Shown here in pieces: positions 884-23,471 of a DNA stretch of 64,000 nt. The notes under the pieces were generated by a model that had not been told where the DNA came from, did not search any database, and saw only the letters and a program-made list of their open reading frames with translations. The DNA lies in the NCBI GenBank assembly GCA_938005315.1, contig CALLOB010000119.1, positions 1-64,000 on the forward strand, written 5' to 3'. The translations under genes and the position numbers were made by a program. The stretch comes from an uncultured Phycisphaerae bacterium. Lineage in GTDB: Bacteria; Planctomycetota; Phycisphaerae; UBA1845; PWPN01. Every line of letters begins with the position of its first letter. Position 1 is the first letter of the stretch.

Positions 884-1492
884 GTTTTTGTCCCTGGTCT
901 GATAACCGTTTCTCTTTTCCTCTTCGCACGACGCGAAGGGTCGCCAGTGACTCACGCATCTGCCGTGCCAGGCATGGAAACGCTGCGGGCCGGCCGCAAG
1001 TAACATATATAAGTCATATTTGGACCTGGGTATCCTCACCGTCGCCCGCTGTCGGGTGGGAAATGCCGGGTAAATCTCCCCGGCCGACCCCCGCCCGGCC
1101 GGGGTCTCTGCGGCCGGCCGGCGGGTCGTCCGGTCCCGCCAGCCGGCGGAACTGCCGACCTTACTGCCCGACGGGCGGACCGGCGAGGCAGGCCTGGGGT
1201 CCGGGGGGCGCGGCCCGGCGGGTCCGTGACAGTCTGGGCGGAGCTATTTGCCGCCTATACGGAATTTGCGACCTTCGGCGGGACGCGCTCCGTCGCGTCC
1301 GCGTCCGGCTCCGCAGAGAAGCGTCGGCTGCCCGCCGACGGCCTTTTTCGCGCCCGTTTTCGCGGCCCCGACGGAGCGGAGCCCTCCGTGTGCTGCCTCC
1401 CCGGGCGATGGAACTTCCCCGAGCCCGATGCGACTGCTGACGGCCGCCGCCACCGTCACGGACCCCTCCCCGGCCGGTGGGAAACGCACGAC
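884..1492. other. Intergenic region with hairpin repeats
   Basis: This is about 600 bases with no credible gene. The left part (about 1000-1020) holds an A/T-rich patch, including TATATAAG-like sequence, next to the small gene at 644-883. The right part carries the interspersed hairpin repeats listed separately (1281-1300 and 1364-1383). Long antisense readings across this region have repetitive Arg/Pro/Gly composition and no recognisable family. Confidence 0.6.
1281..1450. repeat. Interspersed hairpin repeat, locus A
   Basis: Two hairpins sit here. At 1281-1300 a perfect 7-bp stem (GGACGCG/CGCGTCC) encloses the loop CTCCGT. At 1364-1383 GGCCCCG and CGGAGCC (one mismatch) enclose ACGGAG, the reverse complement of the first loop. 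The segment that follows (about 1401-1450, containing CGATGGAACTTCCCCG and ending in TGACGGCCGCC) has a recognisable counterpart at about 5229-5274. The pair is arranged like an inverted REP/BIME-type unit. Confidence 0.75.
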
Positions 1493-1520
1493 TTGCATCG
1501 TCTGATAAGCCGGCTAAACT
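1493..1520 (+). promoter_or_regulatory. Probable sigma-70 promoter for the TPR/alpha-CTD gene
   Basis: TTGCAT (1493-1498), a 16-base spacer and TAAACT (1515-1520) lie about 97 bases before the ATG at 1617. The -10 hexamer and spacer length are identical to those of the promoter before rpsJ at 7607-7634, which supports the call. Confidence 0.55.
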
Positions 1521-1616
1521 GTGGCGTTCCGACGCGATGCGCCGGAGGCAGGCGCAGCGGGCGGCCAGTGCCGGCGGCCCGGAACGGCGCGGCGAGTTCC
1601 ACCAGGAAGAGAGAGC

Positions 1617-2576
1617 ATGGACACTGTCGGGACGTTGATCCGGGAGCGCAAGCTGGGCGAGGCTGAGCGGGTGCTTCAGCAGCAGGCGGACCAGAACTCC
1701 GCAGGCTGGCATTACGCGATGGGTCTGCTGGCCGACGCGCGGGGGGAGGCTGAGCGGGCGATCGGGCACTACGAGGCGGCCCTCCAGGCCGACGGCGGGC
1801 ATCAGGCGGCGGCTTTCAGGCTGGCTCGCGATCTGGACCTCTACGGCGAAGAGGCCCGGGCCGTGGCCTTGTACGAATCGCTGACCAGCCGTTCGCCCGC
1901 CAGCGTGAATGCCCTGCTCAACCTCGCCGCTCTCTACGAAGACCTCGGACGCTACGAGGATGCCTACAAGTGCGTGGACCGCGTGCTTCGCGAGCATCCC
2001 CAGCACCAGCGGGCCCGGGCCTTTCTCAAGGACATCGAAAGCTCGATGACCATGCATTACGACGAGGCCCAGGAGCGCTCTCAAGCCAGGCGCAGTGCGA
2101 TCCTGGACACGCCAATCTCCGACTTCGAGCTGTCGGTCCGCAGCCGGAACTGCCTGAAGAAGATGAACATCAACACCCTCGGCGACCTCCTGCGGATCAC
2201 GGAGGCGGAGCTGCTGGCCTACAAGAACTTCGGCGAGACGTCGCTGGCCGAGATCAAGGCGATGCTCAAGCAGAAGGGTCTGCGACTCGGCCAGCTCAAG
2301 GAGGAGGAAACCCGTGCCGCCCGCGCGCGCAGCCTGCCCGCGCGGCGCGGGGTCGCCGACGGTCCGCCCGAGGTGCTCAACAAGTACCTCTCCGAGATCG
2401 AGTTCTCCAGCCGCTCGCGCAAATGCCTGCAGCGGCTGAATCTGGTGACCATCGGCGACCTCATCATGAAGACCGAGGCCGAGCTTCTGGCCACCAAGAA
2501 CTTCGGGTTGACCTCCCTGAACGAAATCAAGCAGCGCCTGGCCGAGTACAACCTGACCCTGCGCAAGTCCGAGTGA
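1617..2576 (+). CDS. TPR protein with two RNA polymerase alpha-CTD-like domains
   Basis: The protein has 319 aa. The ATG at 1617 follows AGGAAGAGAG at good spacing; the in-frame upstream extension is compositionally odd and was rejected. Residues 1-140 are TPR-like helical repeats (W/Y/A/G pattern, for example NLAALYEDLGRYEDAYK). Residues about 170-226 and 258-316 are two copies of the RNA polymerase alpha C-terminal fold (CLKK-NINTLGDL and KNFG-TSL-EIK). In domain 1 the positions equivalent to E. coli R265 and N268, which contact UP-element DNA, are R175 and N178. In domain 2 the Arg is kept (R266) but the Asn is Lys (K269). There is no alpha N-terminal domain, so it cannot replace RpoA, which is encoded at 22371. 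A role as a DNA- or activator-binding transcription accessory protein is inferred. Confidence 0.85.
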   Translation: MDTVGTLIRERKLGEAERVLQQQADQNSAGWHYAMGLLADARGEAERAIGHYEAALQADGGHQAAAFRLARDLDLYGEEARAVALYESLTSRSPASVNALLNLAALYEDLGRYEDAYKCVDRVLREHPQHQRARAFLKDIESSMTMHYDEAQERSQARRSAILDTPISDFELSVRSRNCLKKMNINTLGDLLRITEAELLAYKNFGETSLAEIKAMLKQKGLRLGQLKEEETRAARARSLPARRGVADGPPEVLNKYLSEIEFSSRSRKCLQRLNLVTIGDLIMKTEAELLATKNFGLTSLNEIKQRLAEYNLTLRKSE

Positions 2577-2624
2577 CCCCGGCCGGCCCGAGGGCGGCCG
2601 CCGCCTGGGCAGGAGTGCCATTCG

Positions 2625-3974
2625 GTGCCCGGACTTCACGTTTTTTCGACTCTGCAGCGGTCGTGGTCGGGAAAGTGGGGCCCGCCGCTTCCGGGACCGG
2701 CCCGTGCGCAGGGCGCGCGCCGGCTGTACCGGGCACGTCTGGCGTTCGCCTGGACGGTCCTGACGTGCGGGGCCTGCGGCAGTCAGATTGAGTCGCGATC
2801 GGACGCGTCGGCATCCGGCGGGGTCCCGAACCCTGGCCCCGCGATGGAGCGGGAGATCCGCGTCCTCCTGGCCGGGGAGGTCCGGGAGGCGGAGGTGGCC
2901 TGCGACGGCCCGGTGATGCTGATCGACCCGCTCGACGGCCGGGAACTCGGGCGTGCGGGCGGGCCGGCGATGCTCGGCATCGTGTTCCTTGAGCAACACC
3001 TGCGCTGCCCGCAGATCTCCGGGACTTTCGACGTCGCGAGTCTGGATGTCGTCTCCGAGGGGCCGGCTCTCCTGACTGTCCGCCTGGGGCAGACCTGGCG
3101 CCGGTTTCGCGGACGGTTGCGCTTCCAGCGCGGTCCCGGCGAGACCGGGACAGTGATCAACGTGGTGGATATCGAGGACTATCTGGCCGCGGTGGTCGCC
3201 TCGGAGCTGCCGGCCAGGTTTCACCCGGAGACCTTCCGGGCGCAGGCCGTCGCCGCCCGCACCTACGCGTGGTTCCAGATCCGCAGCCGGCCCGCCGGTC
3301 GTGCCTGGGACGTCTGGGCGACCGAACGGTCGCAGGTATACCTGGGCGAGGAGCGTGAGCGGCTCGTGCCGCAGGCGGTCGCGGCGGTGCGGGCCACCGA
3401 GGGGCTGGTCTGCAGCTGGGAATCCCCCGAGGGGCCGCGGATCTTCTGCAGCTACTACAGCGCGCGGTGCGGCGGCACGACCCAGGCGGTGAGCAACGTC
3501 CGAAGGGAGCCCGACCTCCCGCCTCTGGCCGGCGGTGTGGTCTGCGCGTATTGCCGAGCCAACCCCGAACCGTGGGGGCCCGTCCGGCTGTCCTGCGAGG
3601 AGGTCGCCCGGCGGCTGAAGGCCCGCTACCCGGTCGCGGCTTCGCTGGGTCCGGTGGCTTCAGTCGTTGTGGTCCGATCGACGCCCGAGGGACGCGCGGT
3701 CCGCCTGGAGATCCGGGATGCCCAGGGCCTGAAGATCGAACTGGAGGCAGAGAACTTCCGCCTGGCGGTGGAGCCCACCGGACGGGAGATCCGGAGCACC
3801 TGGTGCGATATCCGAGTCGAGGAGGGAATGGTGATCTTCGATCGCGGACTCGGTTTCGGGCACGGCGTCGGACTCTGCCAGCACGGGGCGGAAGGCCTGG
3901 CTAGGGAGGGTTGGGGGGCGGCGGCCATTCTGCGACACTATTACCCGCGGTCGTCGCTGACGAGGGCTTATTGA
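2625..3974 (+). CDS. SpoIID/LytB-domain cell-wall protein
   Basis: The protein has 449 aa. The GTG start at 2625 is preceded by AGGAG about 9 bases upstream. The N-terminus has Arg residues and a hydrophobic stretch (about 38-50, followed by Cys residues), suggesting export or membrane anchoring. The SpoIID signature begins near residue 178: VVDIEDYLAAVVASELP, then a block with QAVAARTYA. E194 of the SELP motif matches the catalytic Glu of SpoIID lytic transglycosylases, which cleave denuded glycan strands. A CGG-T motif in SARCGGTTQ and the C-terminal GFGHGVGLCQHGAEGLA block are also family hallmarks. In this non-sporulating context it probably acts in cell-wall remodelling. It ends one base before the next gene, suggesting co-transcription. 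Confidence 0.9.
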   Translation: MPGLHVFSTLQRSWSGKWGPPLPGPARAQGARRLYRARLAFAWTVLTCGACGSQIESRSDASASGGVPNPGPAMEREIRVLLAGEVREAEVACDGPVMLIDPLDGRELGRAGGPAMLGIVFLEQHLRCPQISGTFDVASLDVVSEGPALLTVRLGQTWRRFRGRLRFQRGPGETGTVINVVDIEDYLAAVVASELPARFHPETFRAQAVAARTYAWFQIRSRPAGRAWDVWATERSQVYLGEERERLVPQAVAAVRATEGLVCSWESPEGPRIFCSYYSARCGGTTQAVSNVRREPDLPPLAGGVVCAYCRANPEPWGPVRLSCEEVARRLKARYPVAASLGPVASVVVVRSTPEGRAVRLEIRDAQGLKIELEAENFRLAVEPTGREIRSTWCDIRVEEGMVIFDRGLGFGHGVGLCQHGAEGLAREGWGAAAILRHYYPRSSLTRAY

Positions 3975-5107: not shown

Positions 5108-5275
5108 GGAATGCGCTCCGTCGCATGCCGGATGACCGGCTCGATCGCGTCCGGATTTGCGGCCCCGACGGAGCGGGGCCCTCCGAAAGCTCTGCGGTCC
5201 CGACGGAGCGGGGCCCTCCATGCGGCCCGCAGGGCGAAGGAAACTCTCCGGGGCTGAGGCGATTGACGGCCGCCC
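5108..5275. repeat. Interspersed hairpin repeat, locus B
   Basis: Three hairpins occur here. GGAATGCG-CTCCGT-CGCATGCC is at 5108-5129 (one mismatch). GGCCCCG-ACGGAG-CGGGGCC is at 5161-5180 (perfect). GGTCCCG-ACGGAG-CGGGGCC is at 5196-5215 (one wobble). The last two belong to a direct repeat of about 25 bases with a 35-base period. The downstream part (about 5229-5274, ending TGACGGCCGCC) matches the tail of locus A. The whole locus fills the gap before fusA. Confidence 0.8.
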
Positions 5276-22370: not shown

Positions 22371-23471
22371 ATGCGAGTCAGGTGGCGCGGCCTCGAATTG
22401 CCGACCCAGGTTGAGCGGGACGACACGATCAGCACGGGAACCTACGGGCGGTTCATCATCGAGCCGTTCGAGCGCGGCTTCGGGACGACGATCGGAAACA
22501 GCCTCCGCCGCGTGCTGCTGTCCAGCCTCGAGGGGGCGGCGGTGACCAAGGTGCGCATCGCCGGCGCCTCCCACGAGTTCATGAGCCTGCCGGGCGTCCA
22601 GGAGGACGTCGCCGACATCATCCTCAACATCAAGAGCCTCATCCTCCGCGTCGACGGCGAGGGCGAGCGGACCATGCGGCTGGTCAAACGCGGTCCTTGC
22701 GAGGTTTTCGCCAGGGACATCGAGGCCGAGGCGGCCGTGACCATCATCAACCCCGGACAACTCATTGCCACGCTGACTTCGGAGGTCGAACTGGCCATCG
22801 ATTTCTGGGTCGGTACCGGCCGCGGCTACCGCACCAGCGAAGAGAATCAGTCCGCCACCGACGAACTGGGCATCATCGCGGTCGATTCGGTGTTCTCGCC
22901 GGTCACCCGCGTTCGCTACAAGACCGAGGAGACCCGCGTCGGGCAGCGCACCAACTACGACCGGCTGATTCTCGAAATCTGGACCAAGGGCACCATCGAG
23001 CCCCAGGAGGCCCTGGTCGAGGCGGCCAAGATTCTGCGCAAGCACCTGAACCCCTTCATCCAGTACCAGGAACTCGGCGAGCAGGTGGTCAGTGAAACCT
23101 CGGCGGCTGCCGAAACCGGCGAGTCCATGCTCGACAAGGACCTGCAGGCCCGCCTGTCCATGCCGATCGCCCAGCTGGACCTCTCCGTCCGGGCCAGCAA
23201 CTGCCTCGAGTCGGCCAAGGTCCAGTCCGTCGGCGACCTGGTCCGCATGACCGAGAGCGACCTGCTGAAGGTTCGCAGCTTCGGCCGGACCTCTCTGCGG
23301 GAGGTGAAGCGCAAGCTCGCGGACCTGGGCCTGAGCCTGGGAATGACCTTCGGCGAGGGCGAGCCGCCCGCCGCCGAGACCCAGGTCTCCGCGGGCGGAT
23401 CGACCGAGGATTCCAGCCGCGCCGGCGTCGGCGGGGCGGACGCGATGCCGGCCGACGCGAGCCTCGGCTGA
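22371..23471 (+). CDS. rpoA: RNA polymerase alpha subunit
   Basis: The protein has 366 aa from ATG 22371; GTGGAGG lies 7 bases upstream, whereas the overlapping ATG 22365 is too close to it. The N-terminal assembly domain shows GRFIIEPFERGFGTTIGNSLRRVLL, and DLSVRASNCL opens the C-terminal domain, with the Arg and Asn that contact UP-element DNA (E. coli R265, N268) kept, followed by SFGRTSLREVKRKLADLGLSLG. An acidic/Ser tail of about 35 residues ends the protein. It assembles core RNA polymerase and receives activators. The 247-base leader from rpsK has no recognised gene. Confidence 0.96.
   Translation: MRVRWRGLELPTQVERDDTISTGTYGRFIIEPFERGFGTTIGNSLRRVLLSSLEGAAVTKVRIAGASHEFMSLPGVQEDVADIILNIKSLILRVDGEGERTMRLVKRGPCEVFARDIEAEAAVTIINPGQLIATLTSEVELAIDFWVGTGRGYRTSEENQSATDELGIIAVDSVFSPVTRVRYKTEETRVGQRTNYDRLILEIWTKGTIEPQEALVEAAKILRKHLNPFIQYQELGEQVVSETSAAAETGESMLDKDLQARLSMPIAQLDLSVRASNCLESAKVQSVGDLVRMTESDLLKVRSFGRTSLREVKRKLADLGLSLGMTFGEGEPPAAETQVSAGGSTEDSSRAGVGGADAMPADASLG

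Follow-up and report, generated by a model that had tools for sequence, protein, structure and literature searches.

A TPR protein with two RNA polymerase alpha-CTD-type domains, separate from RpoA, in Planctomycetota

In RNA polymerase, the N-terminal domain of the alpha subunit (alpha-NTD) serves for dimerisation and for binding of beta and beta', and the two C-terminal domains (alpha-CTDs) grip neighbouring A/T-rich minor grooves at UP elements. What is the task of a protein in which two alpha-CTDs stand behind TPR repeats, apart from the polymerase? This question is raised by the gene at positions 1617-2576 of the window, a stretch of 64,000 nucleotides from an uncultured Phycisphaerae bacterium. 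To our knowledge, transcription has been little studied in Planctomycetota.

The gene, its domains and their predicted fold

The gene (1617-2576, plus strand) is an open frame of 319 amino acids with an ATG start. The start is supported by close relatives, whose frames open at this methionine or only a few codons away from it, and a candidate ribosome-binding site read from the sequence, the purine-rich AGGAAGAGA, lies a few bases 5' of the ATG (1604-1612, plus strand). An open frame of 687 amino acids runs antisense to the gene (1161-3224, minus strand). Since orthologs of the plus frame occur throughout the phylum, the reading of 1617-2576 as a chance or antisense frame was dropped, and the minus frame is probably a shadow of the high G+C content. 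A sigma-70 promoter scan upstream of the gene gave no match. A terminator-like hairpin with a T run was seen at 1322-1340, about 280 bp upstream, and is consistent with a separate transcription unit; such matches number 3 in the stretch against 1.4 expected. The G+C-rich dispersed repeat GCGGCCCCGACGGAGCGG occurs at 1362-1379, 5159-5176 and 5194-5211; the genome contains 67 exact copies of it, against 0 of the reversed control. Copies are often grouped in small clusters with spacings of about 35 or 100 bp, sometimes near contig ends, and the repeat looks like a REP-type intergenic family.

Residues 1-145 (1617-2051, plus strand) form the TPR region, made up of three helix-pair repeats with a further helical pair on their N-terminal side and a cap helix on their C-terminal side; Pfam TPR_19 was matched at E=1.3e-12. 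The TPR domains of consensus TPR proteins, OGT and MamA have a like fold but do not share the architecture of the whole protein, and this similarity is generic. A hinge of the form M-x-YDE...R (residues 146-165; 2052-2111, plus strand) follows, recognised by its conservation, with M146 invariant and D149 and E150 kept in at least 90%. The first alpha-CTD (residues 166-225; 2112-2291, plus strand) and the second (residues 257-319; 2385-2573, plus strand), each recognised by Pfam, fold and conservation, are separated by a poorly conserved linker of low model confidence (residues 226-256; 2292-2384, plus strand). Pfam RNA_pol_A_CTD (PF03118) was found in these two stretches with E=8.7e-42 and 141 bits against a cut-off of 23.8, and both copies exceed the curated cut-off. 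In phmmer against the PDB, the matches were alpha-CTDs or alpha subunits and TPR proteins.

Exactly three PF03118 domains are present in the genome itself, namely the one of RpoA and the two of the TPR protein. RpoA, used here as the comparison protein, is complete at 22371-23471 on the plus strand, as the preliminary description had placed it, and its proposal of two alpha-CTDs fused behind TPRs and separate from RpoA is thus borne out by Pfam, by the fold and by this count. The protein was not taken for RpoA itself, as it has no alpha-NTD family in Pfam and reaches 137 bits with TIGR02027 (cut-off 227.8), the best stretch covering model positions 208-297 only. In contrast to RpoA, TPRs replace the polymerase-binding part and both CTDs lie in one chain. 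The lack of an alpha-NTD is also a caution against annotating TPR-alpha-CTD genes as rpoA paralogs.

The whole chain was modelled by AlphaFold2 with 70 sequences (mean pLDDT 93); the pTM of 0.59 leaves the mutual placement of the domains uncertain. Because the whole chain drew TPR-type proteins among the Foldseek matches listed, residues 150-319 were folded separately (pLDDT 80, pTM 0.41). This fragment drew RNA polymerase alpha subunits throughout among the matches listed, including the alpha-CTDs of E. coli, Vibrio, Bacillus and Streptomyces, with the best at about 0.7-1.0 A over 65-66 columns. At the top stood 9zum, an alpha-CTD of Caulobacter bound to A/T-rich DNA (E=2.6e-6, 1.0 A over 66 columns). 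The predicted helices (174-182, 188-192, 196-201 and 207-219 in domain 1; 265-273, 279-283, 287-291 and 298-309 in domain 2) match, element by element, the positions that we take to be those of the four helices of the E. coli alpha-CTD (PF03118, residues about 250-329), with which both domains have sequence, fold and helix boundaries in common. Structure prediction and superposition, the check suggested at the outset, hence returned the helical alpha-CTD fold for both domains at about 1 A.

DNA-contact residues and conservation

Residues were counted in 70 orthologs and are given in E. coli alpha numbering. In domain 1, R175 (R265) and N178 (N268) are kept in all 70, N204, G206 and E212 are invariant and S209 is found in 68. 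In domain 2, R266 (R265) is likewise present in 70 of 70, and N295, G297, S300 and E303 are invariant; the N268 position holds Lys in 52 and Arg in 16. The residues named in the first reading, Arg and Asn in domain 1 and Arg with Lys for Asn in domain 2, are confirmed; across the phylum the Asn of domain 2 is Lys/Arg, and it is domain 1 that has the full R265 and N268 pair. Compared with the CTD of RpoA, both domains retain R265, N294, G296, S299 and E302, and domain 1 alone N268 and C269. Position 298, Lys in E. coli, is Thr in both domains, as it is in the phylum's own RpoA. Several positions set the protein apart from RpoA. Position 267 is a nearly fixed Arg/Lys in both domains, most often Arg; position 297, which adjoins the DNA face, is almost fixed as Glu/Asp in domain 1, against mostly Lys/Arg in the phylum's RpoA; and domain 2 has Lys/Arg for N268. 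At position 261, the presumed site of sigma contact in E. coli alpha, domain 1 has an acidic residue (E or D) in 69 of the 70 orthologs.

For a quantitative comparison, positions 265, 268, 269, 294, 296, 298, 299 and 302 were scored as DNA contacts, with face and core positions assigned as we presume them from the E. coli domain. Conservation was measured as the frequency of the commonest residue, with 20,000 permutations of positions. In both domains, the surface is most conserved at the DNA-contact face, with 0.989 against 0.758 for the other surface in domain 1 (0 of 20,000 permutations) and 0.923 against 0.635 in domain 2 (p=0.0005). On these sequence grounds, we read both domains as working, slightly different minor-groove binders, and it is likely that the protein binds DNA.

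Mean pairwise identity was calculated for the same 31 genomes in every domain; the genome pairs are not independent and the figures are descriptive. It was 71.3% for domain 1, 51.9% for domain 2 and 37.5% for the TPRs, with 54.1% for the RpoA CTD and 55.5% for the RpoA NTD. In 93% of the genome pairs, domain 1 was more alike than the RpoA CTD. That it is better conserved than the CTD of the polymerase itself makes an important DNA-binding job probable. Between the proteins, the RpoA CTD is on average 47% identical to domain 1 and 43.5% to domain 2 over these 31 genomes. As a separate observation, N268, C269 and the N294/G296 loop have apparently disappeared from the RpoA CTD of one genome (L245, G109) but are kept in domain 1 of its TPR protein, and this raises the question of a takeover by the TPR protein.

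Distribution, origin and gene neighbourhood

The phylogenetic profile proposed earlier was run on 294 genomes spread over Planctomycetota, 293 of which gave a match. With an ortholog threshold of E<1e-25 (the RpoA CTD alone scores about 1e-10 to 1e-16), orthologs were found in about 277 of 294. Among the 155 genomes of good quality (at least 90% complete, at most 5% contaminated), all except two (G031 and G143) have one. The presence of the protein is near-universal, and the suggestion of a factor specific to one class is refuted. A scan of contigs gave 239 relatives; the best 80 of them are Planctomycetota where named, two being labelled only 'uncultured bacterium'. In plasmid and phage collections there were alpha-CTD-type matches, none spanning 80% of the TPR protein.

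Most orthologs have about 430-500 amino acids, with some 120-150 extra TPR residues at the N-terminus. The family of the window has a shortened form, which we consider real and not the product of a misplaced start, as several stop-to-stop frames extend only a few codons beyond 319 amino acids. A few very long frames (613 and 1202 amino acids), in which Pfam shows TPRs and alpha-CTDs and nothing else, may result from starts placed too far upstream in G+C-rich DNA. A tree was built from 31 domain-1, 31 domain-2 and 31 RpoA-CTD sequences of the same genomes, together with four outside RpoAs, over 60 columns. Domain 1 formed one group (100/94) and domain 2 another (94/92), and the two together made a single group (97/91) that excluded every RpoA CTD; many forks in this short alignment are unresolved. 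The best fit to these sequences is a single origin followed by an early duplication in tandem.

Downstream of the gene in the window come a SpoIID-domain gene (2625-3974, plus strand, Pfam), a membrane protein of the LPG_synthase_TM family and EF-G, the last read from the sequence. The SpoIID gene is the most conserved neighbour in loci of the Phycisphaerae type, the window included, being next in 64 of 81; tgt, yajC and secDF lie further downstream in some 23-30 of the 81. In 39 loci, mostly from other lineages, ruvA is the commonest next gene (18 of 39). The conserved neighbourhood thus points to ruvA/ruvB rather than to genes of transcription, and from it comes the main rival explanation, which we find rather doubtful. 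In this, the protein would be an accessory of homologous recombination or branch migration, with its alpha-CTDs docked on DNA and its TPRs bound to RuvA, RuvB or RuvC. It is supported by ruvA being the next gene downstream, on the same strand, for 51 of 66 genomes and in 28 families (gap mostly 14-140 bp), but these 66 are a non-random set, being the genomes in the best-match lists of both the TPR protein and RuvA. In one genome (L231, G206) the TPR gene is followed by ruvC, ruvA, ruvB and queH, and in L234 the Pfam order after it is ruvA-ruvB-queH-spoIID-tgt. The ruvC gene also lies directly 3' of it in G138 (contig C21), a genome of this family; in most of the phylum ruvC has a place elsewhere. 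For many lineages, the linkage to ruvA speaks for co-expression with Ruv. As evidence of function it is weak, since the Phycisphaerae keep the gene with spoIID-tgt-yajC and without ruvAB beside it; furthermore, the RuvA_N model found no ruvA in several genomes of good quality in which the protein is present (e.g. G012, G152, G167). The gene often stands first in a cluster of old bacterial housekeeping genes, ruvA-ruvB-tgt-yajC-secDF, so that its place there may be inherited and not functional. The idea that it fills the position of an absent ruvC in front of the ruv genes was ruled out, as 130 of 149 genomes have ruvC, usually elsewhere.

Function and significance

Our preferred reading, to which we give a probability of about 0.5, is a cytoplasmic DNA-binding adaptor that sets its twin alpha-CTDs on A/T-rich DNA, holds a partner by its TPRs and is used in transcription. 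Both domains would grip neighbouring A/T-rich minor grooves, as the polymerase's own pair does, and the TPRs would hold a partner protein. An alpha-CTD pair outside the polymerase could in this manner occupy UP-like DNA for use at promoters, where the adaptor may recruit an activator, a sigma factor or the polymerase, or alternatively compete with the CTDs of RpoA for DNA and activators. In favour of the adaptor we count the PF03118 scores, the fold match including a structure on A/T-rich DNA, the conserved DNA face, the acidic position 261, the identity of domain 1, the spread over about 277 of 294 genomes and the joint group in the tree. Against it stand the Glu/Asp at 297 in domain 1, the absence of N268 from domain 2, and conserved neighbours (ruvA/ruvB and spoIID/tgt) that are not transcription genes. 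More tentatively, the protein is possibly a second, non-subunit source of alpha-CTDs, a general promoter factor of the whole phylum that acts in trans, reads UP-like DNA with its TPR-tethered pair and is, unlike the CTDs of RpoA, delivered by its TPR-bound partner to promoters or to Ruv-processed DNA.

Less probable than the Ruv accessory is a decoy or sink for regulators, in which the alpha-CTDs would mainly titrate alpha's partners (activators, sigma region 4, NusA), DNA binding being secondary. In its favour, the alpha-CTD is known to act as a hub for proteins (PMC13374769), and in domain 1 conservation extends to much of the surface, with acidic residues 261, 286 and 288 kept; against it, both domains have their excess of conservation on the DNA face, and domain 2 varies elsewhere. 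A nucleoid or DNA-architecture protein, with twin minor-groove binders that clamp or bridge DNA and TPRs that oligomerise, agrees with the paired minor-groove faces predicted on a flexible linker and is very unlikely.

It is already known that alpha-CTDs exist outside RpoA. The BREX type 2 kinase PglW, a protein other than RpoA, also contains a domain like the alpha-CTD (PMC12839542), but it has about 1400 amino acids with a kinase and winged helices. A defence protein of the PglW kind was dropped as identity, since only the alpha-CTD part matched (47.7 bits, cut-off 990) and a kinase is lacking. The small family NCBIfam PRK07758 and viral alpha-CTD frames resemble the TPR protein in having the domain outside RNA polymerase, but they carry it singly and without TPRs, and in the matches here they are sporadic and not phylum-wide. 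On the viral contigs (L247, L249 and L251-L257), a single alpha-CTD is part of a small or fused protein, and in L252 and L256 it lies behind seemingly sigma-like or helix-turn-helix regions; for phages, such proteins are a possible route to UP elements or to alpha's partners. Our search of the open-licence literature found no study of a protein with TPRs and two alpha-CTDs in Planctomycetota and no described function; domain databases may well list this architecture already. For Planctopirus limnophila, a published essential-gene screen exists (PMC10632474).

A near-universal protein whose alpha-CTD is under tighter selection than that of the polymerase is a lead to a lineage-wide factor of transcription or of DNA transactions. 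If the preferred reading is true, alpha-CTDs would be usable as a separate DNA-reading module.
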